DNA from: Litoreibacter roseus
Lineage (GTDB): Bacteria; Pseudomonadota; Alphaproteobacteria; Rhodobacterales; Rhodobacteraceae
Direction: 5' to 3'
Assembly (NCBI RefSeq): GCF_009811795.1
Contig: NZ_BLJE01000005.1
Location: 163,938-227,937, forward strand
DNA: 64,000 bases
The notes under the pieces were generated by a model. That model saw only the letters and a list, made by a program, of their open reading frames with translations. It did not search any database and was not told where the DNA came from. Positions 17,726 through 37,436 of this stretch are shown piece after piece; position 1 is the first letter of the stretch, and the number at the start of each line of letters is the position of its first letter. The position numbers were made by a program, and so were the translations under genes.

Positions 17726-17730
17726 AAAGT

Positions 17731-17758: not shown

Positions 17759-17764
17759 ACTTAG

Positions 17765-18720: not shown

Positions 18721-19437
18721 CTACAGTGGATCTGGAAGATCAAACTGGATTGTGTGAGCGCAGAGCCGGACGACACCAGATCCCAGCGCGCCGGTTGCCG
18801 CCGTAATCCGCAATGGCGTATCCTCGTAGTAAGCGACCGGCTGACCGGTTACCCCCTTTAAAAATGCCCCGGTATCAACACCATATCCTGAACCATACCG
18901 TGTCTCAGCGCCGTCCACACCAAGGGACCAATCCGTCGCATCGCCATCGAAGCCCGACAACACTCGTCCGGTGACAGCAAGGACTGAACATCCCGCCGGA
19001 ATGAGCGGTGTCGTCTCAGAAACCGCGGGAGCAGCAGAAAATACGTGATCAATCTCTATCACTTCCGTCCGCGTCGCCGCCCCGCCGCGCGACAGTGAAA
19101 GAATGTTTGATCGCCATGATGTGCCATCGAAGGTGACCTTTACGGCTTCGTCCTGAATAAAGACGCTCCATCCGATCTGCGGGGATAGGAACTCCCAGCC
19201 ACCATTCAGAAAAACGGCCAGCAGGCTGGTTTGCCCCAACCAATCTTCGGCCGCGCCATCAGCCACAAGGTATGTATCGCCATCCTGCGCCGCGCTTGGT
19301 GGATTGGTAATCGATCGACTGATCGCACTCAGATGAAGCGCCGCATCAATACGTGCGAGCGCTTCGTTCATGGTTACGTGTTTTTGGGCCTGCGCCGCGG
19401 CGATGAGCGGTAGCTTCAAATGCGTTGTGTTAGTCAT
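18721..19437 (-). CDS. DUF2793 protein, GTA-associated
   Basis: A 238-residue protein whose first ~100 residues match the DUF2793 pattern (LPLIAAAQAQKHVTMNEALARIDA and DGDTYLVADGAAEDW). This is found next to GTA clusters and in phage tail or appendage genes. The C-terminal half is beta-rich and Gly/Thr-rich, as in fibre or receptor-binding domains. It overlaps the end of g15 by 8 nt, so it is the last gene of the GTA operon. A surface-binding role is inference. Confidence 0.75.
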   Translation of the reverse strand: MTNTTHLKLPLIAAAQAQKHVTMNEALARIDAALHLSAISRSITNPPSAAQDGDTYLVADGAAEDWLGQTSLLAVFLNGGWEFLSPQIGWSVFIQDEAVKVTFDGTSWRSNILSLSRGGAATRTEVIEIDHVFSAAPAVSETTPLIPAGCSVLAVTGRVLSGFDGDATDWSLGVDGAETRYGSGYGVDTGAFLKGVTGQPVAYYEDTPLRITAATGALGSGVVRLCAHTIQFDLPDPL

Positions 19438-23362: not shown

Positions 23363-23823
23363 CAGTTTTGGCTCCCCGTGACATCAGATATCTCTGGAAA
23401 GGCGAAGCAGGCGACGAGCCTGTGCGCCCAAGGCTCAGAGAAGGGCGACTCGACAACCCCGTATTTTGAATAGGAATGGATGAATGTACCCGGCGAGACC
23501 GAGCTCAGTATACCAACGTGCTTGGCAACGGACCCCTCTCTCATCCGAAAGAGCAATACGTCACCCGCTGCGATATCACCCATCGGTTTGGAGATCATGT
23601 GACGCTCGGCACCGTCCCAAAGTGTTTCTTCACCCTGCGGTTCGGACCAATCTGGCGTGTAAGTAGGTATATCTTGTGGTTCCCGGCCATAAAGCGCCCG
23701 CCAAACACCCCTAAGCAATCCCAGGCAATCCGCACCGGCCTGGCAGCAGGAGGCCTGATGACGGTATGGTGTACCAAGCCAAAGGCGGGCCTCTGCGAGC
23801 GCATCGTCAACCAGCGCGCTCAT
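23362..23823 (-). CDS. GTA g14, NlpC/P60 peptidase
   Basis: A 153-residue cell-wall peptidase of the tail tip. Catalytic Cys lies in GADCLGLLRGVW and the His in AKHVGILSS, the NlpC/P60 pattern with a later His (FIHSY) as third residue. In the R. capsulatus particle this protein cleaves peptidoglycan during DNA entry. It overlaps g13 by 4 nt at its start and g15 at its end. Confidence 0.92.
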   Translation of the reverse strand: MSALVDDALAEARLWLGTPYRHQASCCQAGADCLGLLRGVWRALYGREPQDIPTYTPDWSEPQGEETLWDGAERHMISKPMGDIAAGDVLLFRMREGSVAKHVGILSSVSPGTFIHSYSKYGVVESPFSEPWAHRLVACFAFPEISDVTGSQN

Positions 23824-24698
23824 TTAAAAAGGCTCCCGCCACGGTTGCGACCGTCGTCTTGTGGATATGCCATCAGCCAATCTTCACCGGGTATATGAGG
23901 AAATCCGCGGAAATTGATGACGTTGGCAAACTTCGTACGACAAGTGGCCAGACGTTTGTCACAGCCAACTTGAAGCCTGATTAGATCCCCTGATTGGATG
24001 GGTTCCTTGATCTCTTCCCAGAGCTCGATAATCCGTTGCCCGTCATCACCGTCGCGGTCATTTTTGATTGCGCCGACCAGCCCTTTGGCTGCGCCATCCA
24101 AGACCTCAAACCTGCCACGTTCGAACCAGCGCGGCGCATAAGCGTCCAACCCGATCAGTGTAAAAATCCGCGCGTCTTTGATCTCGCCTGCTGCAAGATC
24201 AATCCGGTACTTCGGCAGTGAGACATCAACCCCGCAAGCAGTATCGCCAAGTATAGCCTGACATGGCTTCTGGAAGACCTTGCCAACGGGCGTATTCAGC
24301 TTTTCCGACAAACCACGAAGTTCTGCGTGAAATGCGCCGTCCGACCTTTTCAGTTCCCCAATTGTCCCCGCGAAGCGCAATTCCCGCTCCTCAGGATTTC
24401 GCCAGTTCACCAACCATGACTTCACCTCGGCGCCGTCGAACCGACCAGCAGCAATATCGCGCTCGGTGATCGCCGCGTCCGAAAGCGCACCCACCGCTTC
24501 GCTGTTGTCCACGGCAAGTCCCGTGACCTGTTGCAACGCGCTCGCGGTGAGGCCCGTATCCGCTTTGAACATAATCTCGTCAAAGGACAGCAACCCGTCG
24601 TGATCTGTAAATCCAAAGACCCGCCCATCTTTTCGGGTAATCGACCAACACCGGCAAATCGTCGTCGTTCCCGTTTTCAAATGATCTTGGAGGCTCAT
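23820..24698 (-). CDS. GTA g13, DUF2163 tail hub protein
   Basis: A 292-residue hub protein of the DUF2163/BR0599 family. Conserved cysteines cluster in PCQAILGDTACG and VGCDKRLATCRTKFAN, and the C-terminal FRGFPHIPGEDWL is typical. The R. capsulatus hub binds an iron-sulphur cluster with such cysteines, so the same is likely here. It overlaps g12 at its start and g14 at its end by 4 nt each. Confidence 0.92.
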   Translation of the reverse strand: MSLQDHLKTGTTTICRCWSITRKDGRVFGFTDHDGLLSFDEIMFKADTGLTASALQQVTGLAVDNSEAVGALSDAAITERDIAAGRFDGAEVKSWLVNWRNPEERELRFAGTIGELKRSDGAFHAELRGLSEKLNTPVGKVFQKPCQAILGDTACGVDVSLPKYRIDLAAGEIKDARIFTLIGLDAYAPRWFERGRFEVLDGAAKGLVGAIKNDRDGDDGQRIIELWEEIKEPIQSGDLIRLQVGCDKRLATCRTKFANVINFRGFPHIPGEDWLMAYPQDDGRNRGGSLFK

Positions 24699-25327
24699 AC
24701 GCGCACCTCGAGAACCGGAATATTCGGGACATCACCCGCCTGAAAACTCGCGACGCTGGTCTGAATCGTATCAACGGTAAATCTAACAGGAACGTCGAAC
24801 TCGTAACCCGCAGTCACACGCTCCCCGGGGGCCGGGGCCTCGTTTAACGTGACAAGACCAGTGACCGGGTCACAGATCCAGTCGTCACCTTCGGAAAGTT
24901 CTGTGCCGTCTCGACCAACCTTGATGCTATTCTCAACGGGCTTTGCGACCGGACGCTGATAGCTGTGAGGACCAGAGACGTAGTTTTTAACCAACTGAAA
25001 CTTAGTCGTTGTCCCGTCCCCTTCTGCCAACAATTGATCGTCGCAGGTCACAGCACCAGAGGCACGGCAGGACCTGTAATCCGACCAGTCCTTCCAGCGA
25101 AATCCGTAAAGCTGTCCCTGACGCGCCTCAAAAAAAGCGATCATTGCCTCAACATCATCAAGTGATCGCATCCCGACCCCGGCATCGTAGCGACGGCGAG
25201 AATGTTGCCAGGGCGTGTTCCGCTCTTCGAACCCGTTTGCCAGCGTAACCACCTCGGTCCGCCGCTCAGGCCCGCCAAGCGAGCCAAAAGAGAGAGCGGT
25301 CGGGAACCGCACTTCATGAAAATCCAT
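24695..25327 (-). CDS. GTA g12, DUF2460 distal tail protein
   Basis: A 210-residue distal tail protein (TIGR02217/DUF2460 type). The N-terminus MDFHEVRFPTALSFGS and the VVTLANGFEERNTPW segment are family marks. It forms the ring joining tail tube and hub. Ribosome site GGAGGAAG precedes the ATG. It follows g11 by 26 nt. Confidence 0.92.
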   Translation of the reverse strand: MDFHEVRFPTALSFGSLGGPERRTEVVTLANGFEERNTPWQHSRRRYDAGVGMRSLDDVEAMIAFFEARQGQLYGFRWKDWSDYRSCRASGAVTCDDQLLAEGDGTTTKFQLVKNYVSGPHSYQRPVAKPVENSIKVGRDGTELSEGDDWICDPVTGLVTLNEAPAPGERVTAGYEFDVPVRFTVDTIQTSVASFQAGDVPNIPVLEVRV

Positions 25328-25353
25328 AAGTCTTCCTCCGGGATCGCGTAAAA

Positions 25354-26019
25354 TCAGCGGTTACGTTGACCACGAGACAGCGCGCGGCTCATCTGCGCGG
25401 CGATTTGGCTTTGCGATTTTTGAAAACCGGCAACGTCTGGCGTTGATACGTTCATGACGATTTGCACAGGACGCCCGCCGCCACCGGCAGCCTGGACCCC
25501 CAACTTTCCATCGGCGCCGCGGGTCAACGGCATAATGGCCTCCGGTCCAGCCTCGCCCATCAAACCCACGCCCCCTCGCATTGGGAAATTTGTAGGGCCA
25601 GAAACGACGCCACCTTTTGCAAATGCGGTAACCCGGCCTTGACTGAAAGCGCCGCCATTTTCGAAAGGCAGAATACCTGAAACGATGCCATTCACACCGT
25701 TGGCAATCGCATCACCCAGACCGCGCTGGACCGGTTTCACCGCACTGTTGTAAGCAGCGTTTGCCATGCTTTCGCCGACCGTACGCAGAGCGTCGGATAA
25801 TTTGATGCCGTCGAAGACCAAACCGTCAAACGCTTTACGAAGCCCGCCTCCAATCGACAACGAGAGCGATGCGACCTCTTTCGAAGTATAGAGCATTGTA
25901 GACCGCATCGAGGCGAGTTCCGCCTCAAAGGTGTTAACAACGACCTCGGCACCCCCGAGAGAAGTTTCGAGGCCATCGATTTGAGCCTCCAAGCCGTCAA
26001 GATCATCCAAAATCGCCAT
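25354..26019 (-). CDS. GTA g11, short tail tape measure protein
   Basis: A 221-residue tape measure protein. The N-terminal ~60 residues are a coiled coil (DDLDGLEAQIDGLETSLGGAE), the middle is Gly-rich with GLGDAIANGVNGIVSG, and the C-terminal half carries PGPTNFPMRGG-like tape-measure motifs (GGVGLMGEAGPEAIMPLTRG). It is far shorter than in free siphophages, matching the short GTA tail. ATG at 26019 shares one base with the g10.1 stop (TGATG). Confidence 0.9.
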   Translation of the reverse strand: MAILDDLDGLEAQIDGLETSLGGAEVVVNTFEAELASMRSTMLYTSKEVASLSLSIGGGLRKAFDGLVFDGIKLSDALRTVGESMANAAYNSAVKPVQRGLGDAIANGVNGIVSGILPFENGGAFSQGRVTAFAKGGVVSGPTNFPMRGGVGLMGEAGPEAIMPLTRGADGKLGVQAAGGGGRPVQIVMNVSTPDVAGFQKSQSQIAAQMSRALSRGQRNR

Positions 26020-26225
26020 CACATTGACCTCTCTTTTGTGGAATAAAGTCGTTCAAGCTCAGCCAAGCGAGCGCGGTTGAGCGGTTTCTCGACGGCGTCG
26101 AGACCCAGAAAAAGCACAAGTTCAGCTGGCGTCAGGCGCCAGAACTCCCACGGTTTCAGGCCCGCATCCTGAACAGCAACCTTCAACAACGCAGGCCAGT
26201 CGAACCCGGGCGCCGAAATGCTCAA
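26019..26225 (-). CDS. GTA g10.1, tail assembly chaperone
   Basis: A 68-residue protein with LKPWEFWRLTPAELVLFLG, the signature of the small phage tail assembly chaperone encoded before the GTA tape measure. It is coupled by overlap to g10 (4 nt) and g11 (1 nt). In siphophages such proteins arise by frameshift from the preceding gene; here it is a separate frame. Confidence 0.85.
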   Translation of the reverse strand: MSISAPGFDWPALLKVAVQDAGLKPWEFWRLTPAELVLFLGLDAVEKPLNRARLAELERLYSTKERSM

Positions 26226-26539
26226 GTCTCACCCATCACGAATGCGCGGGCCAACAACTGTGCGGCGACCTTCGTGGCTTCCATCAAACCGCCTGTGATT
26301 TCAACGGAAAGCAGATCTTTCGCTGTTCCAGCCCAACCGCCCCCGCGCAGCCCGGCGACAATCAGCGCCAACACATCGCGGGTTGAAAATTTACCGGTCT
26401 CGAAACGCTCAATGAGATCAAGAACCGTTTCGTTATCCAACTCCCCCTCAAGCTCCGCGAGTGCACCGAGCGTGAGCTTGAGATCGTGCGGCTGTCCATC
26501 CAGCTGCAGCCGCACTTCGCCGCTCCAAGGATTTGCCAT
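26222..26539 (-). CDS. GTA g10, tail chaperone-like protein
   Basis: A 105-residue protein of the GTA-specific gp10 family (VRLQLDGQPHDLKLTLGALAELE). Its predicted beta hairpin followed by helices, with LLARAFVMGET at the C-terminus, fits a tail assembly chaperone partner. The start abuts the g9 stop and the end overlaps g10.1. Confidence 0.85.
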   Translation of the reverse strand: MANPWSGEVRLQLDGQPHDLKLTLGALAELEGELDNETVLDLIERFETGKFSTRDVLALIVAGLRGGGWAGTAKDLLSVEITGGLMEATKVAAQLLARAFVMGET

Positions 26540-26958
26540 CAGACTGAAAGCGGCTCAAAGTTCAAAACACCGCCCGATGCCATCGACATGTCATACGTCG
26601 CCTCGCCTTCGACGGATCCTGAATATTCAATCGATGTGATCTGAAAAGCTCCTCGAACGATACCAAAGTCAGGAATTACGATCTCGAAATTTGGCATTTC
26701 TCCGTCAAAGAAGATCTGACGCGCGCGCTCGTCTGTTGCGTCATCCCGGAACACGCCGGATCCCGACAGCGATGCGGACTTCACGCCGGCCCCTGCGAGC
26801 AATTCACGCCAGCCGCCCTGGGACTCCAGAGAGGTCACGTCAACCTGTTCGGCATTGAAGCTGATCTTGGTGGCACGCAGGCCAGCCAGAACTTCGTAAG
26901 TCCCATCCCCGGTCAGGTCGATTTTCAGCAGAAGGTCTTTACCCCGTTGAACCGTCAT
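26539..26958 (-). CDS. GTA g9, major tail protein
   Basis: Major tail tube protein of the TP901-1 type, 139 residues. The start TVQRGKDLLLKIDLTGDG, then the VDVTSLESQGGWRELL motif and the FQITSIEYSGSVEGEATYDMS segment, are typical. It polymerises in hexameric rings to form the tail tube. A terminator-like hairpin lies between g8 and this gene. Confidence 0.92.
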   Translation of the reverse strand: MTVQRGKDLLLKIDLTGDGTYEVLAGLRATKISFNAEQVDVTSLESQGGWRELLAGAGVKSASLSGSGVFRDDATDERARQIFFDGEMPNFEIVIPDFGIVRGAFQITSIEYSGSVEGEATYDMSMASGGVLNFEPLSV

Positions 26959-26976
26959 CTCGTATCTCCATATCTC

Positions 26977-27004
26977 AAAAAACAGCCTCCGGCGATGCCG
27001 GGGG
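26977..27004 (-). terminator. terminator-like hairpin between g8 and g9
   Basis: On the minus strand CCCCCGGC pairs with GCCGGAGG around ATC with one mismatch, and CTG then six T follow (plus-strand A at 26977-26982). It begins about 30 nt after the g8 stop and ends about 19 nt before g9. This is unexpected inside a structural operon. Confidence 0.55.
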
Positions 27005-27033
27005 TCCGCTCAAAATCTGTTGGTCAAATGTTT

Positions 27034-27444
27034 TCAGGCGTCATCAACGATGGCACGAAACGTGAGATCGACGCGGCGGCCCCCTCCGTTTTGAACGCGT
27101 GCGGCCCGCGCCTTGTAAAAGCGGCAGGTCACAAGACGACCCCGGGCCAGGTTCATGTCAGCATCAATCAGAATATCTGTGATACGTCCGGCGACCCGTT
27201 TCGCCACCGCAAATCCAGCGGTATCGCTCACGACGCTCAACGTGAATTCATGAAGAGCACCCGCACCCGAGGCGTCCGAGCGCGTTTTAACCGTTTCAGG
27301 ACCGATAGCGACGTAGAGCGGGGGAACGGCACCAGCGGGTTCAGCATCAAAGATCGAAGCCCCCACAAGCATTCCAAGCTCGGCATCTGTCGAAAGCGCA
27401 TTGTAGACAGCAGTCTGCAGCGCCTCGGAAATGGCATAGCTCAT
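27034..27444 (-). CDS. GTA g8, DUF3168 tail terminator
   Basis: A 136-residue DUF3168 protein, the tail terminator that caps the tail tube at the head interface. It contains ALQTAVYNALSTDAELGMLVG, the VPPLYVAIGPETV strand and LHEFTLSVVSDTAGFAVAKR. It overlaps g7 by 4 nt at its start. Confidence 0.9.
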   Translation of the reverse strand: MSYAISEALQTAVYNALSTDAELGMLVGASIFDAEPAGAVPPLYVAIGPETVKTRSDASGAGALHEFTLSVVSDTAGFAVAKRVAGRITDILIDADMNLARGRLVTCRFYKARAARVQNGGGRRVDLTFRAIVDDA

Positions 27445-27782
27445 CCCGCCACCTCTTCGATTGCAAAGCAGGTTAGATACCGCGCATCCCGATCATACTC
27501 GGTTACGCCAATGATCCGAAAAATGCGCGTCTCGTCCCGCAGCCGCTGTTCCGCTCTTGGCCGTGATGGCGCGCCAACCGGGGCGCCGCGAACCACGATC
27601 CGGTACGGCACCTGAGAAACGGTGACCTCTTGGCCAAAGCGTTCACGACCGCTTCCCGGCGTAATTTCGGCCCACAACTCGCCCACCGCATTCCAAGTCT
27701 CGGTAAAGCCACCCGCACCGTCAGAGACACGCATCGCGTCCTCCAAAACCAGCCTCCGGGTCAGGGAAATCGCCTTGCTCAT
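27441..27782 (-). CDS. GTA g7, head-tail adaptor (head closure)
   Basis: A 113-residue phage head-tail joining protein: RRLVLEDAMRVSDGAGGFTETW with VPYRIVVRGAPVGAPSRPRAEQR and the FRIIGVTEYDRDARYL core is the standard head-closure fold. Overlaps of 4 nt with both g6 and g8 show tight coupling. Confidence 0.9.
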   Translation of the reverse strand: MSKAISLTRRLVLEDAMRVSDGAGGFTETWNAVGELWAEITPGSGRERFGQEVTVSQVPYRIVVRGAPVGAPSRPRAEQRLRDETRIFRIIGVTEYDRDARYLTCFAIEEVAG

Positions 27783-28375
27783 GACCGGGCCTCAAAAATT
27801 CTGATGTTGCGATGAGGATCAAGCAGCGACATCACACCGAACGGCATGAGGCCACCGGCGCCGGATGTATCCCTCCGGTTTTCGTAGTAGTGCGCTGCCA
27901 GCATCAGAACCGCTTGACGCAGTTCCGATGGCACCGCGGACCAGTCAGCGCCGTAACCGGCGTCAAAAATGATCGTCGCTGATCCACCATTCGAGATAAC
28001 CGGCAGCGTAGAACTGTAGGCGAAAACTCTGGGTCTATGGGTGTCACGCTCGAGATCATAAGACCCAGCGTCGACTGTCGTTTCGGTTCCTGCACGATCC
28101 ATCAGCGAGATGGACTGAATTGCTGTTACCGGTGCAACCGGCAAGGGTTGCGATCCCGAGTGGGCCCAGCGCGTGATCGTCCACGAGACGCGACGCGACA
28201 GCATCATCTTGCCAATGCGCGCTTCGATCGCGCCGATCGCGGCTCTTAAAAAGCTTTCCAGCACTTCGTTTTGCAGCCCGTCATCGGAAAATCCAGTACC
28301 CAACCGCAGATGGGCCTTGAAGGCCTCGATTGGCAGATCTTCCGTAGGCGTTGAGGTCAACTCAACCAGCATCAT
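27779..28375 (-). CDS. GTA g6, head-tail connector
   Basis: A 198-residue head-tail connector (gp6-like adaptor). The N-terminal LPIEAFKAHLRLGTGFSDD and the RDTHRPRVFAYSS region followed by ELRQAVLMLAAHYYENR are family marks. It follows the capsid gene after an 87-nt gap with two strong hairpins. GGAGG lies ahead of the ATG. Confidence 0.88.
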   Translation of the reverse strand: MMLVELTSTPTEDLPIEAFKAHLRLGTGFSDDGLQNEVLESFLRAAIGAIEARIGKMMLSRRVSWTITRWAHSGSQPLPVAPVTAIQSISLMDRAGTETTVDAGSYDLERDTHRPRVFAYSSTLPVISNGGSATIIFDAGYGADWSAVPSELRQAVLMLAAHYYENRRDTSGAGGLMPFGVMSLLDPHRNIRIFEARS

Positions 28376-28401
28376 GTTCCACCTCCCCGAAAAGAGAACA
28401 C

Positions 28402-28453
28402 GTCGGGCCAGCCCCCGACAGGCAACCGCCGCGCCTTAGAAAAAGCGCGGCGG
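28402..28453 (-). other. two tandem hairpins after the capsid gene
   Basis: CCGCCGCGC (28426-28434) pairs perfectly with GCGCGGCGG (28445-28453), loop 10 nt, starting 10 nt after the capsid stop. GTCGGG (28402-28407) pairs with CCCGAC (28414-28419). Neither has a U-run, so they look like 3'-end stabilisers or partial attenuators and not full terminators. Confidence 0.6.
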
Positions 28454-28462
28454 TCCAACAAT

Positions 28463-29668
28463 TTAGGAGGTCGAGAACTTCAGAAGCTTGATCGCAGCGA
28501 AATCGCTAACATCGCCGCCAACACGCTTGGTCGCATAGAACAGAACGTGTGGCTTGGCGCTGAACGGATCACGCAGGATACGCAGGTCAGGACGTTCCGC
28601 GATGGTGTAGCCTTTTGTGAAATCACCAAACGCAATCGCAGTGCTGTCGCTGCCGATATCAGGCATGTCTTCCGCGATCAGGACCGGATAGCCCATCAGG
28701 CGTGCAGGCTCACCGGCCGCCAGACCATCGGACCACAGGAAGCGGCCGTCCGCGTCTTTCATCTTGCGAACTGCACCGGCAGTCTTGGAATTCATGACGA
28801 AGGCGGCATTTGCGCGGTAACGAGCACCCAGCGAATAGACCAGATCGACAATTGCATCGGCAGCGGCACCGGATGCAAACTCACCGTCTGCGCCTGTCGC
28901 AATGTAGCCAAGCGAACCCCAGGACCATGTGTCATCTGACACGGTCGGATGCGTCAGGAAACCTTTAGGCTTGTCAACACCGTCGCCTGAAACGAACGCT
29001 GCGGCTTCCGCAGTCGCAAACTTGTCGGCAATGCGGCCAGCCAACCAGCTCTCGATGTCGAAGGCACTGTCGTCAAGCAGACGCTGGGACGCTTTCGGCA
29101 ATGCGGACAGTTCGTGCAAGGGCACAGAGATGCGCTCGAACTGAGGCGTTCCGGTTTCGACGGCATCCGCAGTTTCGGTGGCCCAACCGGAGCCCAGATC
29201 GGACCGGTCAACGAGAACTTCATAGGCCGTCGCTTCGACATTTACGACATTCGAAATGGCCCGCAGAGACGCGGAGGATTTCAAAACGGTCGAGATGGTA
29301 TCAGACGTCTGTGGATCGACCAGGTAGCCGCCATCCGCTGCAACAGCGGTTGTCATGCCCTTGGCATCCAGTTCCAGACCGCGCAGACCGTCATCATCAC
29401 CGGACCGCAGGTAAGCCTGAAATGCCTTTTGATGCGGTGCATCCGCGTCCATCGCGTTGGACAGGGCGGGGCGTGCAGCACGCGCGAAATTCTTGCGATC
29501 CAGATGGGTCATACGTTCTTCCTGTTGTTGAAACTTGGATTTGATATCAGCTTGGAATTCATTGAAATCGCTCAAGAACCCGGCCATCTCGGTCGTGAGG
29601 TCCAAAGCTGCGTCTTGGGTCTGAGGCACACCGTCCTCAGCCCGGGACTTTGTCTCGGGAGTCTTCAT
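28463..29668 (-). CDS. GTA g5, HK97-family major capsid protein
   Basis: Major capsid protein, 401 residues. The N-terminal ~100 residues contain a charged coiled coil (the delta domain removed by g4 protease). The HK97 core begins about residue 105, with GGYLVDPQTSDTI, VEATAYEVLVDRSD, and the C-terminal FGDFTKGYTIAERPDLRILRDPF. In the GTA it builds a small head with little room for DNA. Confidence 0.95.
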   Translation of the reverse strand: MKTPETKSRAEDGVPQTQDAALDLTTEMAGFLSDFNEFQADIKSKFQQQEERMTHLDRKNFARAARPALSNAMDADAPHQKAFQAYLRSGDDDGLRGLELDAKGMTTAVAADGGYLVDPQTSDTISTVLKSSASLRAISNVVNVEATAYEVLVDRSDLGSGWATETADAVETGTPQFERISVPLHELSALPKASQRLLDDSAFDIESWLAGRIADKFATAEAAAFVSGDGVDKPKGFLTHPTVSDDTWSWGSLGYIATGADGEFASGAAADAIVDLVYSLGARYRANAAFVMNSKTAGAVRKMKDADGRFLWSDGLAAGEPARLMGYPVLIAEDMPDIGSDSTAIAFGDFTKGYTIAERPDLRILRDPFSAKPHVLFYATKRVGGDVSDFAAIKLLKFSTS

Positions 29669-29703
29669 GTGTCATCCTGACATTGTTGTGTGAGAGAAAC
29701 GGA

Positions 29704-30276
29704 TCAGCCGACCGCAGGACCCGCCTTCAAGGACCGCCGCAGCGTGCGAAGCACACCGGCCAGATCCTGACCCGGATCTGCCGCCAGCGCTTCCGCCTTT
29801 GCGCCGACCCGCGCCTGCTGGAGCATCGGGAACGTGACCAAAGACACCTCCCAAAGCTCCAATTCTGCCAATTGCCTGCGGCCGTTGGCGTCCCGGTCGG
29901 CCTTGACCGTCCGGTATCCGATAGAAAGACCATCAATAGCGCCCGCCTCAATCAGCGCCGCTGCCTCACGTCCTTTCTGCGTTTCAGTGAGAAGGCGGCC
30001 CTTTACAAACAGGCCACGTTCATCTTCATAGACATCGTCCCAGACACCGATCGGCGTTGCGGGATCGTGCTGCCACAACAGCTTCACCGAAATACCCTGC
30101 ATCTTCAGGGTGTCCAGTGATTTAGCATAGGCACCGCGCTGTACGATGTCCCCGCCCTGGTCCTCGGCGCCAAACAGCGACGCATAGCCCGAGATGGTTG
30201 CATCAGAGCCCAGTTCGATATGGTCCGAAATCTGGCAATACTTCCGCTCTAACTCTGGCCCGTAATATGCTGTCAT
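29704..30276 (-). CDS. GTA g4, prohead protease
   Basis: HK97-type serine protease of 190 residues that trims the capsid protein. The N-terminal GYASLFGAEDQGGDIVQRGAY and the catalytic-region LLWQHDPATPIGVW (His) with DGLSIGYR (Ser) fit the family. The ATG at 30276 with AAAGGA upstream was chosen; the open frame extends further but without a ribosome site. Located as expected immediately before the capsid gene. Confidence 0.93.
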   Translation of the reverse strand: MTAYYGPELERKYCQISDHIELGSDATISGYASLFGAEDQGGDIVQRGAYAKSLDTLKMQGISVKLLWQHDPATPIGVWDDVYEDERGLFVKGRLLTETQKGREAAALIEAGAIDGLSIGYRTVKADRDANGRRQLAELELWEVSLVTFPMLQQARVGAKAEALAADPGQDLAGVLRTLRRSLKAGPAVG

Positions 30277-30296
30277 GATTGTCTTTTCCTTTTGTA

Positions 30297-30533
30297 TCAT
30301 GGCACCAGAAATCCGGTGACCGTCTCGCTTAGGATCGCGGCAGAAACGCCAAAAATTGTGAGCCAAACCCGTTTTTCCAGTCGCTCGATGCCCTGCTCAA
30401 TCAGGCCCAGCCGATATTCGAGACCTTTCCAGCGCTCTTGCTGGACCCGTTCGTTGGCCTCAACCGTATGAGCCGGTGCGTATTCGAACGGCTCATAAAG
30501 ATATCGCGACCCGCCGGCCTTGCGGGTCGACAT
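30297..30533 (-). CDS. GTA g3.5, small membrane/head protein
   Basis: A 78-residue protein between portal and protease, positional counterpart of R. capsulatus g3.5. A charged N-terminal half with a probable helix (ERWKGLEYRLGLIEQGIERLE) is followed by a C-terminal hydrophobic segment (VWLTIFGVSAAILSETVTGF). Its function is not established. It abuts the portal stop codon. Confidence 0.75.
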   Translation of the reverse strand: MSTRKAGGSRYLYEPFEYAPAHTVEANERVQQERWKGLEYRLGLIEQGIERLEKRVWLTIFGVSAAILSETVTGFLVP

Positions 30534-31708
30534 CAGCTCGCAGCCTCAGGGGGCAGGCCCAGCAAAACACGCTTTTCCGCCGTACTCAGAAATTCAGCAG
30601 CAGCGACCCGTGACCACTGCGCCTCACGTTCTGCCGAAAGCGCCGCGATCTGGTCCAGATCGGGCGCCAGCGCCACATCTTCACCCGCGATCTCGCCCAG
30701 CCAATGCGAGACTGCCCCCAAGACCTTGCCAGCCAAGGGCAGAACCGTCAGGCGATAGAAGGCACGGTTGGCCTCCTGATAATTCGCGTAGGTCGCGTCA
30801 CCCGGAATACCCAGAAGCATCGGCGGAACACCGAACGCCTGCGCGATCTCGCGGGCAGCAGCCTCTTTGGTTTTTTGGAACTCCATGTCGCTGGGGCTGA
30901 ACCCCATGGGCTTCCAGTCCAGACCACCTTCCAGAAGCATCGGGCGTCCGGCATTTCGCGCACCCTGATGGTGTGCCTCCATCTCGTTTTGCAGGCGTTC
31001 ATACTGATCGTTTGTCATGGCGCCCTGACCGTCAGAACCCTTGTAGACAATCGCGCCAGACGGACGCGCTGCGTTGTCGAGCAAGGATTTGGACCAGCGG
31101 GACGCGCTGTTGTGGACGTCAATGGCAGAAGCAGCAGCCTGAAGCGGTGAGAACCCGTAGTGGTCATCCTGAGGATGAAACGACCTGATATGGCAGATCG
31201 GGGCAACGTCGCCGGTCATATCAAAACGATGTTTTTTCCCGCCAACACGGTAGTCATACGCAACAGGCCAACCATCGCCGCCGGGAACAAGGTTCATTCG
31301 GTCCGACCGCAGAACGTGCAGTTCCACCGGAACACCCAAATCAGCACCAACCGCTTCTAAATATCCATTGCCCGACAACAGAAGCTGGCCATAAAGCGCT
31401 TCCAACAACTCGGCGCGCCCTTGGGCGGCATTGGGCCGGGACACCAAGGACAGCAGCGGGTGGGTCTCATAGCGCTGCCCCGCGTCCTGCAACACCAATG
31501 GCAGCGCGGCAGCAGCCTCGGCGATCATCTTGACAGACCGGAAGCCCACCGGGTTGCCGGAAAACCCTGCCTTCGTCAGCGACACCGTATCCCGCGGTGA
31601 CCAGGCAACGCGACCCGTGCCGTGATAGGCGATCACCCGCCCCGTCGCGGAGGCTTTGACCTCCGGCACGTCCTGCGTATCGCCCCGTTTTAGAAAATCG
31701 AACACCAT
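30533..31708 (-). CDS. GTA g3, portal protein
   Basis: HK97-type portal protein, 391 residues, forming the dodecameric DNA gate. Signature segments are SVKMIAEAAAALPLVL, YGQLLLSGNGYLE, SPLQAAASAIDVHNSASRW and FGVPPMLLGIPGDATYANYQEA. The ATG at 31708 has GAGGAG 6 nt upstream; seven to eight further upstream codons are open but less likely to be used. It abuts g3.5. Confidence 0.94.
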   Translation of the reverse strand: MVFDFLKRGDTQDVPEVKASATGRVIAYHGTGRVAWSPRDTVSLTKAGFSGNPVGFRSVKMIAEAAAALPLVLQDAGQRYETHPLLSLVSRPNAAQGRAELLEALYGQLLLSGNGYLEAVGADLGVPVELHVLRSDRMNLVPGGDGWPVAYDYRVGGKKHRFDMTGDVAPICHIRSFHPQDDHYGFSPLQAAASAIDVHNSASRWSKSLLDNAARPSGAIVYKGSDGQGAMTNDQYERLQNEMEAHHQGARNAGRPMLLEGGLDWKPMGFSPSDMEFQKTKEAAAREIAQAFGVPPMLLGIPGDATYANYQEANRAFYRLTVLPLAGKVLGAVSHWLGEIAGEDVALAPDLDQIAALSAEREAQWSRVAAAEFLSTAEKRVLLGLPPEAAS

Positions 31709-31730
31709 CTTCCGCTCCTCAAATCCCATC

Positions 31731-31762
31731 AAAAAAGGCCCTCGGATCGCGTCCGTGAGCCT
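31731..31762 (-). terminator. terminator-like hairpin between g2 and g3
   Basis: On the minus strand AGGCTCACGGA (31762-31752) pairs with TCCGAGGGCCT (31746-31736), ten of eleven pairs with a CGCGA loop, followed by TTTTTT (31736-31731). It sits in the 81-nt gap after the g2 stop, 22 nt before g3. By shape it is a good rho-independent terminator in the middle of the operon. Confidence 0.65.
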
Positions 31763-31789
31763 GAATTCTCTGTTTACTGTTATGTCGGG

Positions 31790-33190
31790 TCAGAGTGTCC
31801 GGACACTCGGACGTTCTGCGGGGCCGCCCATCAATTCCGTCAGCGCCCAGACCAATGCATCGACCCGGTCCGGCGACCCTCGGCCCACGTACCCTTGGGT
31901 GGTCATGTTGCACATCTGATCTTCCAACGCGCCCAGATCACTGTAATGCGCGACCCGGCCCTGCTCATAGAGCGCCGCAATCGGTTCCGCCCGCGCGATC
32001 TTACCACGCGTCGCCCGCACCGACTTGTAGGGTGTCATCGGAGATACCTGCCGCAACAAAGTCTCGACCAGATCTCCGCCTTGATTAACCTCAGCGACCA
32101 CGCGGTCGGCTCCGTGACGCTCATAGGCGGCGACCACGGCTTCCGCCCAGCCCTGTGGCGACGCCCCCTGGATGGTCGCATCTTCGATCACCACCGCGCG
32201 CCAGTCTTTCCGGGCGCCCTTCGTCTGCGCGCCGACCACCATAATCCCGCAGGCATCAGAGGCCTTGCCAGACGACACCGCAGGATCAACCGCAACCACG
32301 ATCCGGTCAAACTCGGGCAATTCGCTCACGCGCGTCCGTTCCAGCATGCTGGTTTTCCAAAGCGCACCTTCTGCATCGTCCAAGAGAACGCCATCCAGTT
32401 CCTGACGGCCCAGTCGGGTGCCGCCGTAGCGGTTCCGAACCTCCTCAAGAAAGTTCGATGCCAGGTAGGCCCGGTTTGCCTCGGTCGGTGCTGAAGTCCG
32501 CACGGTCGAGGACGCCTGCAATAATTGCTTGAGCACCTGAACATTGCGCGGGGTAGTCGTCACGACCTGCTGCGGGCGCTCCCCCAGACGCAAACCGAAC
32601 TGAAGCATGTCCCATGCCTCCTCGGCCTTTTTCCATTTCGCCAACTCATCGACCCAAGCCGCATCGAATTGCGGCCCACGCAGCGCTTCCGGAGAGGACG
32701 CGGAATGCGCTTCGGCAACCGCGCCGTTAGCCCAGACCAACCTGCGACGGGACGCTTCCCATTTGGGGCGGCGATCCGGCGGCGAACACGCAAGAATTCC
32801 GCTATCGCCAAAGATCATCACGTCGCGGACCTGATCGAAGGTTTCGCCCACCAGCGCGACCCGTTTGGCCCGCCCTGGATCCATGGGCATATCGCCTTCA
32901 ACCATCGAGCGAACCCACTCGGATCCGGCCCGCGTCTTGCCTGCGCCGCGACCGCCCATGATCACCCATGTGCGCCAGTCGCCCTCGGGGGCCAGTTGAT
33001 GGTCCAATGCCCAGAAATCAAACATCCACGGCAGCGCCGCCAATTCATGTTCGTCAAGACTGTCCAGAAACTGGTCCTGCACCGTTTGCGGCGCGGAGCT
33101 GAGCCAGGCGGCCCCCGATGACAGATCGTGCTCTTCCAAAATCGAGGGCGTACTCAGCGGCTTTGCCTGCCCGTTCTGACGTGAAATCAT
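31790..33190 (-). CDS. GTA g2, terminase large subunit
   Basis: DNA-packaging ATPase/nuclease. Walker A is GGRGAGKTRAG about residue 77-87, a Walker B-like segment is FDAAWVDELAKW, the TTTPRNVQVLK coupling motif follows, and the RNaseH-like nuclease begins at VAVDPAVSSGKASD. I chose the ATG at 33190 (GAGGG upstream), giving 466 residues; a TTG at 33211 is also in frame. Either start lies far inside g1 in another frame, so the two genes overlap by ~137 nt. Confidence 0.92.
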   Translation of the reverse strand: MISRQNGQAKPLSTPSILEEHDLSSGAAWLSSAPQTVQDQFLDSLDEHELAALPWMFDFWALDHQLAPEGDWRTWVIMGGRGAGKTRAGSEWVRSMVEGDMPMDPGRAKRVALVGETFDQVRDVMIFGDSGILACSPPDRRPKWEASRRRLVWANGAVAEAHSASSPEALRGPQFDAAWVDELAKWKKAEEAWDMLQFGLRLGERPQQVVTTTPRNVQVLKQLLQASSTVRTSAPTEANRAYLASNFLEEVRNRYGGTRLGRQELDGVLLDDAEGALWKTSMLERTRVSELPEFDRIVVAVDPAVSSGKASDACGIMVVGAQTKGARKDWRAVVIEDATIQGASPQGWAEAVVAAYERHGADRVVAEVNQGGDLVETLLRQVSPMTPYKSVRATRGKIARAEPIAALYEQGRVAHYSDLGALEDQMCNMTTQGYVGRGSPDRVDALVWALTELMGGPAERPSVRTL

Positions 33191-33425
33191 GTAATTTGCC
33201 CTCGTATTCAATCGTTAGCCGCAACAGGGCACCAACATCGCCCTTTATAATCTTTGCAATGTCGCCCGCCGTGGTCTCGCCGTCCCGAAGGCGATCACGT
33301 TCCCGCATTAAGTCCCTTTTGAGGTCCGTCATCATATCAAGAAGCGCGCCGAGATTTTCGTCTACGTTCTTCCGGAAATCGACGACGTCCCCCGCATCAC
33401 TTCCGTGGTGCGTTTGTCCATCCAT
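33054..33425 (-). CDS. GTA g1, terminase small subunit
   Basis: A 123-residue small terminase-like protein, first gene of the GTA operon. A central coiled coil (NLGALLDMMTDLKRDLMRER) and a helical region with GDVGALLRLTIEYEGKLHDF are seen; the known GTA TerS is an atypical short form without a clear cos/pac-specific DNA-binding domain. The start is uncertain between ATG 33425 and GTG 33446. The last ~45 codons overlap g2 in another frame. Confidence 0.85.
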   Translation of the reverse strand: MDGQTHHGSDAGDVVDFRKNVDENLGALLDMMTDLKRDLMRERDRLRDGETTAGDIAKIIKGDVGALLRLTIEYEGKLHDFTSERAGKAAEYALDFGRARSVIGGRLAQLRAANGAGPVSGQS

Positions 33426-33459
33426 CTCGTTTTCCCCGACAGTCACAGTGGTGGCAGTG

Positions 33460-33480
33460 TGTCTGACTTCCGTTCAGACA
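33460..33480 (-). other. hairpin just ahead of g1
   Basis: TGTCTGA (33460-33466) and TCAGACA (33474-33480) form a 7-bp stem with a 7-nt loop between the leader terminator and the g1 start. It could hide or present the g1 ribosome site. Confidence 0.4.
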
Positions 33481-33481
33481 T

Positions 33482-33516
33482 AAAAAAACGGCCCCGGATC
33501 ATCATGATCCGTGCCG
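33482..33516 (-). terminator. terminator in the GTA operon leader
   Basis: On the minus strand CGGC-A-CGGATC pairs with GATCCG-GG-GCCG around ATGAT, followed by seven T (33488-33482). It lies ~170 nt after mltG and only ~57 nt before g1. It can end mltG transcripts, but any GTA promoter located further upstream must read through it. Confidence 0.7.
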
Positions 33517-33532
33517 CTCGCCCAGTTCTTCC

Positions 33533-33605
33533 AGCTTGACAAAACCTATGCCTTAGACCGTTCGCAAAGTCAAGCTTATTCGCCACCCAAGGCAGCGAAC
33601 GGTCT
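33533..33605 (-). promoter_or_regulatory. interlocking inverted repeats in GTA leader
   Basis: AGACCGTTCGC (33555-33565) has its exact reverse complement at 33595-33605. AGCTTGAC (33533-33540) has its exact reverse complement at 33569-33576. The arms alternate, so the two stems cannot form together except as a pseudoknot. They lie directly before the leader terminator. Possible roles are alternative RNA folds of an attenuator, or paired binding sites for a regulator such as GafA. Confidence 0.5.
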
Positions 33606-33608
33606 TTA

Positions 33609-33623
33609 TTAACAAGCACTTAA
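33609..33623 (-). promoter_or_regulatory. CtrA-type site before GTA operon
   Basis: TTAA at 33609-33612 and TTAA at 33620-33623 with exactly 7 bases between match the full CtrA recognition pattern TTAA-N7-TTAA. It is placed where the GTA promoter is expected, between mltG and the leader structures. CtrA is known to govern GTA production in Rhodobacter. Confidence 0.5.
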
Positions 33624-33684
33624 CGTAACAGTGCGAAATCTCAACAAACAGTAAAGGACGGCCGGAAGCGTCAAGGAAACAAGG

Positions 33685-34845
33685 CTATTGGCTCTCGTTT
33701 CGCTGGGCCTCGATCTCACGCCAACGCGCGACATTCTCATTATGCTCACCGATTGTCTCTGCGAACGCATGCCCGCCAGTGCCGTCCGCCACAAAGAAGA
33801 TGTATGGCGTTTCGTCCGGATTAAGCGCCGCTTCGATAGAGGCACGCCCCGGATTCGCAATCGGCGTCGGTGGAAGCGCAGGGATCACGTAGGTGTTGTA
33901 GGGTGTGCGCGTCCGCAATTCGGATCGCCGCAAGCCACGACCTAGCCCGTTACTCTCCCCTTTTGTGATCCCGTAGATCACTGTGGGATCCGTCTGCAGC
34001 TTCATGCCTTGACGCAGTCTATTGGTAAAGACAGAGGCCACCTGCCCCCGCTCCTCCGGCATGCCCGTCTCCTTTTCCACAATAGAAGCCAGGATAAGCG
34101 CCTCTTCCGGTGTCTCAAGCGGCACTTCGGGATCGCGTGCAGCCCAGGCTTCCGCCAGAATGGATTTCTGCGCTGCTTCCATACGCTGCAAAATCTCGCC
34201 CCGGTTGGTACCGCGCGCGACCTCATAGGTGTCCGGCGCAAGGGAACCCTCTGCAGGCACCCCAATCAACTCCCCGGTCAGGAACTCGGCATTCTTCAGA
34301 CCTTCGACAATTTGCCAGCTCGACAGACCTTCCGCGACGGAGACCCGGTAGACAATCGGCACTTCGGCCGCAATCGCCTCGCTATAGGCCTCTGGCACGT
34401 CCTCACCTGCGGCAAACGCGGCAAGGATCGTCTCCTCACCCGTTCCGGGCGTACGCTCCCGAAAACGAGTCTCGGCGCCGGAATTCCGGATGATGTAGTT
34501 GACGACATAGCGGAACGTGCTGGGACCACCTGCTGTCAGAATATCCATGATCTCCGCCATCGAAGCGCCTGCCGGCAGCTCGTAACTGCCAAACTTCAGA
34601 TCACTTGCCGTGTCTGCATACTCTGCACCAATCCGAAAGAGCATGGGTGATGTGATCGCACCCGTTGCCTCAAGCCGCTGACTGACAACTCGCAATGACG
34701 CACCCCTTGGCACCTCAAAGAATGTTGCCGTCTCCAGCGGGCCTTCCGATGTATATTGAGATTGCCCCCATCCAACCGCGATCCCAAGGCCGACGAGCAG
34801 CACAATAAAAACGCTCAGCGCGTTTGAGGCGATGGATTTCCACAT
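33685..34845 (-). CDS. mltG: endolytic transglycosylase MltG
   Basis: Inner-membrane lytic transglycosylase that cuts nascent peptidoglycan strands. An N-terminal signal-anchor (ALSVFIVLLVGLGIAVGW) is followed by a LysM-like domain and the YceG/MltG catalytic domain. The catalytic Glu lies in ILASIVEKETG, and RLRQGMKLQTDPTVIYG is the family block. The length of 386 is normal. Its ATG overlaps the fabF stop (ATGA), so translation is coupled. It flanks the GTA operon on the promoter side. Confidence 0.95.
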   Translation of the reverse strand: MWKSIASNALSVFIVLLVGLGIAVGWGQSQYTSEGPLETATFFEVPRGASLRVVSQRLEATGAITSPMLFRIGAEYADTASDLKFGSYELPAGASMAEIMDILTAGGPSTFRYVVNYIIRNSGAETRFRERTPGTGEETILAAFAAGEDVPEAYSEAIAAEVPIVYRVSVAEGLSSWQIVEGLKNAEFLTGELIGVPAEGSLAPDTYEVARGTNRGEILQRMEAAQKSILAEAWAARDPEVPLETPEEALILASIVEKETGMPEERGQVASVFTNRLRQGMKLQTDPTVIYGITKGESNGLGRGLRRSELRTRTPYNTYVIPALPPTPIANPGRASIEAALNPDETPYIFFVADGTGGHAFAETIGEHNENVARWREIEAQRNESQ

Positions 34846-36107
34846 CAGCCGTCAACCTTGCGCATGATCAGGCAGGCATTTGTGCCACCAAAGCCGAAAG
34901 AGTTCGACAAAACCACATTGATCTCGCGCTCAACCTTCTGCTTCGCACATAGGTTGATCTCGGTCTCCGCGGCGGGCGTCTCCAGATTGATTGTGGGCGG
35001 CGCGACCTGATCCCGGATCGCCAGAATGCAGAAGATCGCTTCAATCGCGCCAGCAGCCCCCAAAAGGTGCCCGGTCGCTGACTTGGTCGAAGACATGGCC
35101 GTCGAGCTTGCCGCGTCTCCCAGCAAGCGCTCTACTGCGCCAAGCTCAATCGTATCAGCCATGGTGGAGGTGCCGTGGGCGTTCACGTAATCGATCTCGG
35201 ACACATCAATGCCGGCACGCTTGACTGCGGCACGCATGGCGCGCTCTGCGCCTTCATGATCGGGCGGTGGTGCCGTGATGTGATGGGCGTCGCCGGACAG
35301 CCCGTAGCCGATCACTTCCGCATAAATCTTTGCACCGCGGGCCTTGGCATGCTCGTATTCTTCGAGAACCACGACGCCAGCGCCCTCACCCATGACAAAA
35401 CCATCGCTGTCTGCATCCCACGGGCGGCTTGCCTTCTCGGGCTCATCGCTGCGCTTGGTCGACAGCGCCTTGCACGCGTTGAAGCCTGCAATCCCGATTT
35501 CGCAAATCGGGCTTTCCGCGCCGCCTGCAATCATCACATCCGCATCGTCCAGCATGATAAGCCGCGATGCGTCACCTATGGCATGCGCCCCGGTGGAACA
35601 CGCCGTGACGACCGCGTGGTTTGGTCCCTTGAAGCCGTATCGAATACCCACCTGCCCGGAGACGAGGTTGATCAGAGAGGCCGGGATAAAAAATGGCGAA
35701 ACCCGGCGAGGACCGCGTTCCTTGATCAAAACGGCAGTATCTGCAATCGAGGAAAGCCCCCCGATGCCAGATCCGATCATGACGCCGGTCCGCTCAAGGC
35801 TTTCCGCATCTTCTGGGGTCCATTTGGCATCTTTCACGGCCATGTCGGCCGCAGCCATCCCGTAAAGAATAAAGTCGTCGACCTTGCGCTGCTCTTTCGG
35901 CTCCATCCAGTCGTCAGGGTTGAACGTGCCATCCGATCCGTCCCCACGCGGGATTTCACAGGCGTAATCCGTGCCAAGGTGGGACGCATCAAATCGGGTA
36001 ATCGTGCCCGCACCGGACTGTCCCGCCAAAAGGCGTTGCCACGTGTCTTCGACACCGCTGGCCAAAGGCGTCACCATGCCCAGACCTGTCACCACCACTC
36101 GCCGCAT
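34845..36107 (-). CDS. fabF: 3-oxoacyl-ACP synthase II
   Basis: KAS II condensing enzyme, elongating acyl-ACP with malonyl-ACP. Catalytic Cys lies in TACSTGAHAIGDA, and the two His lie in NAHGTSTMADTIELG and KSATGHLLGAAG. The FGFGGTNACL end is canonical. The ATG at 36107 gives MRRVVVTGLGMVTPL, the family start, and 420 residues; upstream open codons are not expected to be used. It is co-transcribed with mltG. acpP, normally its neighbour, is separated by two plus-strand genes here. Confidence 0.96.
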   Translation of the reverse strand: MRRVVVTGLGMVTPLASGVEDTWQRLLAGQSGAGTITRFDASHLGTDYACEIPRGDGSDGTFNPDDWMEPKEQRKVDDFILYGMAAADMAVKDAKWTPEDAESLERTGVMIGSGIGGLSSIADTAVLIKERGPRRVSPFFIPASLINLVSGQVGIRYGFKGPNHAVVTACSTGAHAIGDASRLIMLDDADVMIAGGAESPICEIGIAGFNACKALSTKRSDEPEKASRPWDADSDGFVMGEGAGVVVLEEYEHAKARGAKIYAEVIGYGLSGDAHHITAPPPDHEGAERAMRAAVKRAGIDVSEIDYVNAHGTSTMADTIELGAVERLLGDAASSTAMSSTKSATGHLLGAAGAIEAIFCILAIRDQVAPPTINLETPAAETEINLCAKQKVEREINVVLSNSFGFGGTNACLIMRKVDG

Positions 36108-36380
36108 ACCCCACCCCTTTTCTTTCACGTTCCAAAGGTTCCAGCAGGTCTTACACGTGCCGCCCCCCGAGGGGCAAGCCTCTCGCGGTGTCACCGGAAC
36201 CTCGAAGCGCCCAGTACGGGTGCAAATTCCCGCCTATCTTCTCCACGAACTGACGTCATCGCGCACCAAGCAATCAAATCTTAGAACTTACGATGTCCTA
36301 TGACGCAATTGCGCTGGACGGCTCGACAATTCTGACACAGTCTGAGCTTGGGATGATGTCGAAAAGACACGTTGGGACAC

Positions 36381-37436
36381 ATGGACGATCTGAGTAACGC
36401 AAAACGCGTGGTGCGTGATTTCACGACCCGGTTTGATTTAGAAACAGCAGACGCACGGATTGATATCTGCGCGCAGCATTGCGCGGCAGACTACAGGTGG
36501 CGCGGGGTTCACCCGTTTCACGAACAGCCCGATGCGGCGGGTGCCATTCGGGCGTTCTGGTCCCCCTTCCTGACCTCTTTTTCAAACGTCCAACGTCGGG
36601 AAGATGTCTTTTTCGCAGGCCTTAATGATTGTGACGACCAGAGCTCTGTATGGACCTGCTCGATGGGGCACCTCATGGCGCTTTTCGATCACTCGTGGCT
36701 GGGTATCCCCGCCACGCGCAAGATCGCCATGCTCCCCTACGCGGAATTTCACCGGATCGAAAACGGCAAAATCGCAGAGACGGCTTTTTTCTGCGATATC
36801 CTGCGGGTCGCAGGACAAGCGGGCCTCTACCCGCTGCCGCAGCAAACCGCCGCTGATATGGTTAATCCCGGCCCGCGAACAAATGACGGTCTGCTTTTGG
36901 GACATCATGATCCCGCAGAGGGCGCCCAGACACTTGCGCTAGTCAACCGGATGGCCGCTGACATCTCCCGCGCAAACCGGCTGCTGAACGGTGAGATCGA
37001 GCTGACAAATTTCACCCCGCGAGACGAGTTGGCCGCCAACTGGCACGAGGATATGGCATGGTACGGCCCGACCGGCATCGGGGCGACCTACACAATCGAC
37101 CGGTATATCGAACAGCATCAGCAGCCGTTCCGCAAACATCTGGCAAACCGGATTTTTCACGGTCACGTCGCCCGAGTTGCGGAAGGCAACTATTGCGGTT
37201 TCTTCGGCTGGCCAAATCTGAGCGTCACGCCCATTGGCGGCTATATGGGTCTACCTGCGACGGGGAAACCTGCGCCCATGCGAGTGGTTGATGTGTACCG
37301 CCGCGACGGGGACAAGCTGGCGGAGAACTGGGTCTTTATTGATTTGCTGCATTGGCTGAACGTTCAGGGATTGGACGTACTGGGCCGGATTGCGGCGATG
37401 AACTCTGAAAATTTGATGCAAATACGCAGGGCCTGA
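36381..37436 (+). CDS. NTF2/SnoaL-like protein with two domains
   Basis: A 351-residue cytoplasmic protein that looks like a tandem of two SnoaL/NTF2-like alpha+beta barrels (about residues 5-155 and 190-345). Each has a conserved start such as HCAADYRWRGVHPFHE or WHEDMAWYGPTGIGATY and ends in a beta strand. Such proteins include polyketide cyclases, ester cyclases and dehydratases; the substrate cannot be told. ATG at 36381 was chosen over a TTG at 36372. It runs opposite to the flanking fab genes and so appears inserted into the fab region. Confidence 0.65.
   Translation: MDDLSNAKRVVRDFTTRFDLETADARIDICAQHCAADYRWRGVHPFHEQPDAAGAIRAFWSPFLTSFSNVQRREDVFFAGLNDCDDQSSVWTCSMGHLMALFDHSWLGIPATRKIAMLPYAEFHRIENGKIAETAFFCDILRVAGQAGLYPLPQQTAADMVNPGPRTNDGLLLGHHDPAEGAQTLALVNRMAADISRANRLLNGEIELTNFTPRDELAANWHEDMAWYGPTGIGATYTIDRYIEQHQQPFRKHLANRIFHGHVARVAEGNYCGFFGWPNLSVTPIGGYMGLPATGKPAPMRVVDVYRRDGDKLAENWVFIDLLHWLNVQGLDVLGRIAAMNSENLMQIRRA

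Follow-up and report, generated by a model that had tools for sequence, protein, structure and literature searches.

The best comparison for the locus described here is the GafYZ/terGTA system of Caulobacter crescentus, as presented in Tran and Le 2024 (PMC11150451). There, the gene transfer agent (GTA) operon holds terminators in the cluster that have to be passed, terGTA consists of three 150-bp GC-rich repeats after the first gene, and GafZ reads through terminators when starting from its own promoter. The same text states that GafA is homologous to Caulobacter GafY and GafZ and considers that GafA of Rhodobacter capsulatus might have an unrecognised antitermination activity. Lambda Q, phage 21 Q, and AlpA similarly combine a promoter binding element with a terminator downstream of the same promoter (PMC11150451 and PMC9371919). 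The pairing of a promoter-proximal terminator with a promoter-loaded antiterminator is already known; what is new in the locus described below is its place and its conservation throughout an order. We analyzed a 64,000-nt stretch of DNA from Litoreibacter roseus (Rhodobacteraceae, Rhodobacterales; assembly GCF_009811795.1, contig NZ_BLJE01000005.1, positions 163,938 to 227,937), referred to as the window, whose numbering is used below. It contains a minus-strand GTA operon with genes named g1 to g15 in what we take to be the order of the R. capsulatus GTA (RcGTA). The leader of this operon carries a module in which a predicted promoter is followed at nearly fixed spacing by a hairpin and a U-tract. 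Antitermination control is the best reading of the hairpins in this operon, and the leader hairpin likely stops polymerase unless GafA, predicted to load at the GTA promoter, permits read-through.

Like its Caulobacter counterpart, the L. roseus GTA operon has terminators in the cluster to be passed, and most of the operon is separated from the promoter by a terminator; here these are predicted ones, in the leader and between g2 and g3 (g2|g3). The spacer element of the module occupies the same relative place, the interval between −10 and −35, as the GafZ-binding element, and GafZ has one promoter target in Caulobacter (PMC11150451), as is predicted for GafA in the genome studied here. In contrast to the terGTA repeats, the leader hairpin is short and of the intrinsic type, keeps nearly fixed spacing, occurs order-wide, and is joined by a second hairpin at g2|g3. 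Antitermination has been measured in Caulobacter, according to the same text, whereas for the L. roseus system we only infer it. The pause element and nozzle mechanism are features of lambda Q and AlpA, and no relation of GafA to these proteins was seen among the matches listed in our searches, which excludes nothing. No description of a leader terminator in a Rhodobacterales GTA was found among the papers listed in searches of the open-access literature. In Bartonella, antitermination reportedly integrates expression of the BaGTA, judging by the title of Korotaev et al. 2025 (eLife).

The module consists, in order, of a −35 element TTGAC, a spacer element, a weak −10 element, a conserved initial transcribed region (CAAGCTgGAAGAAgTGGGC), a G+C-rich hairpin, and a U-tract. 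We described it with an alignment (A1) of 64 of 77 distinct modules, leaving out 13 with tandem, degenerate, or weak leaders. All parts lie on the minus strand of the window. The predicted −35 element, TTGACT, is at 33568–33573; TTGAC stands at the module start in 76 of the 77 modules, a conservation that is partly by construction since both the seed and the anchoring sought this motif. Within the 17-nt spacer lies the element GCGAACGGTC (33556–33565; consensus GCGNNCG[G/C]TC), conserved and only partly palindromic, with a mean of 0.85 bits over A1 columns 9–17 and 1.4–1.5 bits in single columns. The predicted −10 element, CATAGG (33545–33550), is weak, but its second base, A, is invariant in A1. 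From its position, transcription is predicted to start at ~33537, 112 nt before the g1 ATG at 33425. The initial transcribed region CAAGCTGGAAGAACTGGGC (33520–33538) runs directly into the hairpin (33486–33519), which overlaps a run of seven U (33482–33488). This predicted leader terminator (33482–33519 in all) thus spans about +18 to +55 from the predicted start, and it has the layout of an intrinsic (Rho-independent) terminator, a G+C-rich stem-loop with a U-tract directly after it.

From the −35 element to the hairpin, A1 is almost gap-free. The mean information content is 1.38 bits per column in the initial transcribed region, 1.40 and 1.48 in the two stem arms, and 1.66 in the U-tract; it is 0.47 just before the initial transcribed region and 0.64 beyond the U-tract. 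This profile bears on an alternative in which the hairpin serves the stability or translation of g1 mRNA, protecting the 5′ end while the U-tract acts as a binding site and little termination occurs. The hairpin does sit in the 5′ leader, where the fold computed for the window places another hairpin after it. However, the U-tract is among the most conserved parts of the module and directly follows the stem, which is the hallmark of an intrinsic terminator, and the sequence beyond it differs between clades, as judged by eye. We regard this alternative as improbable compared with the antitermination reading.

Two features of the surrounding promoter DNA were also recorded. Upstream of the −35 element, the spacer element recurs in inverted form, so that AGACCGTTCGC and GCGAACGGTCT (33595–33605 and 33555–33565, minus strand) form a perfect 11-bp inverted repeat; the second copy is perhaps another GafA contact. 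At 33609–33623 on the same strand, 35 nt upstream of the −35 element, there is an exact TTAA-N7-TTAA box, which we take to be the CtrA consensus. Boxes with at most one mismatch occur within 110 nt in 46 of the 77 modules (22 of them exact), while 2.4 would be expected from base shuffles. According to a section heading in Fogg 2019, the RcGTA promoter is not bound by CtrA, and the box may mark a true lineage difference from RcGTA.

To estimate how widely the module is distributed, GTA loci were fetched around the terminase, 55 from named genomes and more from the same genus, family, and class. A profile search found the module in 78 of the 109 loci with enough upstream DNA. Since 15 of the 31 misses came from loci outside the order or related at class level only, the module is present in 78 of 94 loci of the order, one identical pair being counted twice. 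Of the 77 distinct modules, 74 show, at the standard place, a hairpin that folds at −12 kcal/mol or better and has a U-rich tail. Some leaders are tandem: by eye, three loci of the same genus (L089, L097, and L098) carry a pair of terminators downstream of the promoter, the first in the standard position and the second closer to g1, and in L001, L002, L099, and L102, the first terminator is poor in U-tract or stem and the second is good.

Viral contigs of IMG/VR, which were not used to build the module, were picked by a 19-base motif alone, with TTGAC not being a criterion. Among 57 matched contigs, 45 had GTA genes, and in these a hairpin with a U-rich tail directly followed the motif in 43 and TTGAC stood at the expected distance in 44, although some of the 45 duplicate each other or a species of A1 (L240 carries the L011 module) and do not represent 45 independent events. 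None of the 12 contigs without GTA genes had either the hairpin or TTGAC.

A covariance model of the module (R1) gave a single match at E ≤ 1 in the genome from which the window comes (E 6.2e-20; 150 of 1236 candidates scored). Matches were obtained in 45 of 61 genomes of the family and, at E ≤ 0.01, in 145 of 195 genomes of the order; the capsid gene was detected (1e-30) in 174 of the 195. Comparing the two lists, R1 is present in 132 of the 174 capsid-bearing genomes and in 13 of the 21 others. Of 112 genomes compared, 105 carry the match on the strand of the capsid gene, 3.6–10.7 kb upstream of it. The seven exceptions comprise five in which R1 is on another contig and two with R1 on the opposite strand, and five of these seven matches have E > 1e-4. 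In a search at class level, 8 of 387 genomes matched; two belong to this family, and the E values of the other six are weak. In another alphaproteobacterial genus (G072 and its kin), a diverged promoter and initial region, CGCTGAAGAATTG, precede hairpins that vary and in many cases have no good U-tract; a loose pattern found this form in 11 of 20 loci of that genus and in 0 of 10 loci of other families. The resemblance is no more than suggestive.

Candidates for a phage ancestor of the module were rejected: a distant DNA search of phages gave partial matches only, none of the 139 covering at least 80% of the query and the best 10 of them covering at most a third. Roseobacter phage CRP-6 carries a terminator-like site in the region around its TerL, but the R1 matches there are weak and fragmentary (best E 0.068).

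The stem of the leader hairpin covaries. For 12 named stem pairs in the 64 aligned loci, standard pairing was found in 88.3% of cells (as high in 0 of 500 shuffles), and 58 cells had changes on both sides (0 of 500 shuffles). Both-sided change affected 9 of the 12 pairs, a number reached by 6 of 500 shuffles, and the covariation score was 0.306 (0 of 500 shuffles; at most 0.125 for slid versions). RNAalifold, run without a given structure, recovered 10 of the 12 pairs and added three extending into the U-tract. These values should be read with the caveats that kinship inflates the contrasts, the structure was read from the same sequences, and dropping 13 rows favors the stem.

The same alignment argues against an RNA attenuator. 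In such a scheme, a ligand, ribosome, or RNA would choose between the terminator and an antiterminator fold in which the 3′ arm and U-tract are paired to the initial transcribed region. By inspection, GAAGAAGUGG could pair with CCGCUUUUUC in many sequences. However, no coevolution was detected between these parts (n = 64): the region scored −8.16 with its own 3′ arm and −8.25 with swapped arms (SD 0.22, 40 swaps). By contrast, the 5′ arm does favor its own 3′ arm (−14.67 versus −12.55 swapped, SD 0.23). No Rfam family reached gathering score at the leader. An RNA antiterminator was rejected because of the lack of coevolution, and we consider the attenuator highly improbable.

The sequence-only reading from which this analysis started had noted three minus-strand hairpins with U-runs of 6–7, with stems judged by eye, and had treated them as equal. 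All three are present, at the leader, g2|g3 (31731–31762, predicted terminator between terminase and portal genes), and g8|g9 (26977–27011, terminator-like), with U-runs of 7, 6, and 6 and folding energies of −20.4, −14.1, and −17.5 kcal/mol (z-scores of −3.1, −2.7, and −2.9 against dinucleotide shuffles), respectively. Their placement in the few gaps of the operon was described roughly correctly; g5|g6 (88 nt) and the 200 nt ahead of g11 are also gaps. Their equal treatment did not hold. A strict scan required at least 5 consecutive U and a stem folding at −12 kcal/mol or better. By this measure, the leader had a sense-strand site in 69 of 93 loci versus an antisense site in 4 of 93, g2|g3 had 16 of 84 versus 0, and g8|g9 had 3 of 72 versus 1. 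By the same criteria, 18 of 19 leaders from the same genus had a terminator. Regions with at least one strict site amounted to 2.0 per kb for the leader versus 0.084 for coding sequence. The check proposed with the sequence-only reading, whether other Rhodobacteraceae GTA clusters hold stems in the same gaps, turns out positive for the leader, partly so for g2|g3, and negative for g8|g9. The leader site exceeds chance by far, g2|g3 shows enrichment, and the g8|g9 hairpin, though real in the window, is not conserved.

At g2|g3, 13 of 16 loci of the same genus, the window included, combine a U-rich tract with a hairpin that folds at −13 kcal/mol or better; elsewhere the occurrence is patchy. Because the tract in these loci is often TTTTCTTTT, the strict scan scores only 6 of them. 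At g8|g9, 4 of 14 loci of the same genus, again including the window, have a hairpin of −13 kcal/mol or better, and the other three differ in sequence by eye; lacking conservation, this site cannot be used as evidence for a conserved scheme. Antitermination control as proposed in the sequence-only reading is partly supported, through the leader hairpin and to some extent g2|g3; g8|g9 adds nothing to it.

Other sequences were seen in these gaps. A palindrome, CACCGTACGGTG, which resembles the promoter spacer element, occurs shortly past the g2 stop in the g2|g3 gap of L088 and L090–L093 and further in for L086; the L092 copy is followed by C instead of T. By eye, sequences of the type GCCTCCGGCGGGGATATTT recur in several GTA gaps, including g2|g3 of other Rhodobacterales, and a similar piece is found in g8|g9 of some loci of the same genus; perhaps they represent a dispersed repeat.

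The genome encodes GafA, a protein of 377 amino acids with a DUF6456 domain (PF20057, 6.3e-61) at residues 231–367. PF20057 is also matched in Caulobacter vibrioides, and we equate it with the GafZ domain on the basis of where it lies in GafA and of the homology that PMC11150451 reports. At 30 gafA loci, the best R1 match was partial (E 3.7). The one R1 match in this genome, with nothing better than a partial match at gafA loci, echoes the single Caulobacter target of GafZ. In published work, R. capsulatus GafA binds 76–125 bp upstream of g1, a stretch including the −10 element and the start site (PMC6363796), and GafA-C binds an RcGTA fragment holding the −10, the −35, and the start site. An AlphaFold2 model of GafA (predicted local distance difference test score 77.7, predicted template modeling score 0.51) gave no Foldseek match at E ≤ 0.001. 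No Q or AlpA structure was among the best 50 matches listed in either of two structure searches with GafA, which excludes nothing. In an alignment (A2) of 28 GafA proteins, all end in G, at least 90% end in IG, and the stretch GWSARSGKIVLRIALQRL is nearly invariant.

The sequence-only reading had proposed a processive antiterminator or GafA-type activator. The latter fits the GafZ precedent (PMC11150451). Published work presents GafA as an activator that contacts the omega subunit. This published role fits an alternative in which the leader hairpin is only an insulator that terminates upstream read-through, GTA transcripts pass it without a dedicated factor, and GafA acts at initiation alone. 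It is common for operons to be separated by terminators, and in 57 of the 77 modules a same-strand mltG has its end no more than 500 nt upstream. An insulator would, however, be expected upstream of the promoter, yet the hairpin begins ~18 nt past the predicted start at nearly fixed spacing. The arrangement is also kept in the 20 of 77 modules for which the fetched upstream DNA showed no mltG or only one at a distance of over 500 nt. Where mltG does lie upstream, 18 of 64 modules examined contain an additional predicted terminator (−7.6 or better) after the end of mltG and ahead of the −35 element. The conservation of the initial transcribed region, as strong as that of the stem arms, likewise speaks against insulation alone. 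We therefore consider the insulator unlikely, and a terminator of mltG as the whole story was rejected since the module persists without adjacent mltG.

Under GafA-dependent antitermination, GafA, made in few cells, would activate initiation at the GTA promoter, with GafA-C recognizing the spacer element and possibly the initial transcribed region. It would then stay with polymerase as this passes the stop in the leader, the weaker one at g2|g3, and, for this strain, the one at g8|g9. Without GafA, polymerase starting here or arriving from upstream would stop near +55. The leader stop would in this way keep out leaky initiation and upstream read-through, and the operon would be expressed only in cells with enough GafA. 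Beyond the existence of the module and the encoded GafA, we infer each of these steps, including termination at the hairpin. The strongest form of this scheme, in which one GafA both fires the promoter and, loaded via the spacer element and the first 18 transcribed bases, makes polymerase pass a terminator in the first 55 nt, is a tentative proposal that we hold to be possible but somewhat short of probable.

Several observations weigh against the scheme. At a profile score of 20, 16 of the 94 loci of the order lack the leader module, and two loci, L109 and L026, keep the promoter but, as judged by eye, no good stem and U-tract. R1 found no match in 42 of the 174 capsid-bearing genomes, nor, among the 52 genomes of the family in which gafA occurs together with TerL, in 10; these cases imply that GafA can work without the exact module. 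Beyond the order, there was no clear R1 match at GTA leaders. A loose terminator scan of 17000–36500 gave 21 sites versus 20.7 expected; a hairpin with a few U is thus not special alone in this region, and the case rests on comparison. The leader as a whole folds only slightly better than shuffles (z-score −1.66). The matches listed for the GafA model are structures of DnaA domain IV, winged-helix, and sigma region 4 types at middling Z, which is silent on antitermination. Finally, GafA is described as an activator in the available parts of Fogg 2019 and of Sherlock and Fogg 2022, and no word beginning “terminat” was found in those parts.

If the strongest form of the scheme is true, a phage-style late-gene switch would be contained within 100 bp. 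GTA production would then require both initiation and elongation, as in an AND gate, and a non-producing cell that fires the promoter would emit only ~50-nt RNAs. This bears on the question, posed in the model GTA system, of how production comes to be limited to a few cells. The module pinpoints a candidate site, a hairpin of about 35 bp; in any Rhodobacterales laboratory strain that has it, removing the hairpin should make the operon independent of the elongation role of GafA. The covariance model marks GTA promoters across the order and so helps find both intact and decaying GTAs.

Some GTA loci apparently are decayed, judging by their gene content. In L100–L102, matches are limited to mltG, g1, TerL residues up to 191, and g15, the TerL remnant lying in an open frame of 843–853 amino acids; L093 is without g3.5 to g14; and L143 matches only mltG, g2, and g15, with a stop within gafA in the corresponding genome (G023). 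The leader module is still recognizable in all five. R1 matches without a capsid gene at E ≤ 1e-30 were found in G101, G200, G496, G498, G516, G562, G566, G567, G623, G627, G635, G647, and G653 (weak in G101 and G562; G653 identified by elimination), and these genomes possibly carry GTA remnants or split clusters.

By Pfam domains, the GTA operon of the window includes terminase, portal, capsid, tail tube, and g15, the latter with GTA_TIM and Rcc01698_C; mltG (YceG) lies upstream of the operon. On the minus strand, g1, the first operon gene (33054–33425), is an open reading frame named by its small-terminase position, with no Pfam match at 1e-5. It is followed by g2, the terminase large subunit (31790–33211, Terminase_6N/6C), and g3, the portal protein (30533–31732, Phage_portal, 2.9e-89); g9, the tail tube protein (Phage_tail_2, 2e-46), is at 26539–26958. 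At gathering score, Rfam matched only SorX and one tRNA in the window, neither of them inside the GTA operon; the SorX small RNA lies at 56–129 on the plus strand.

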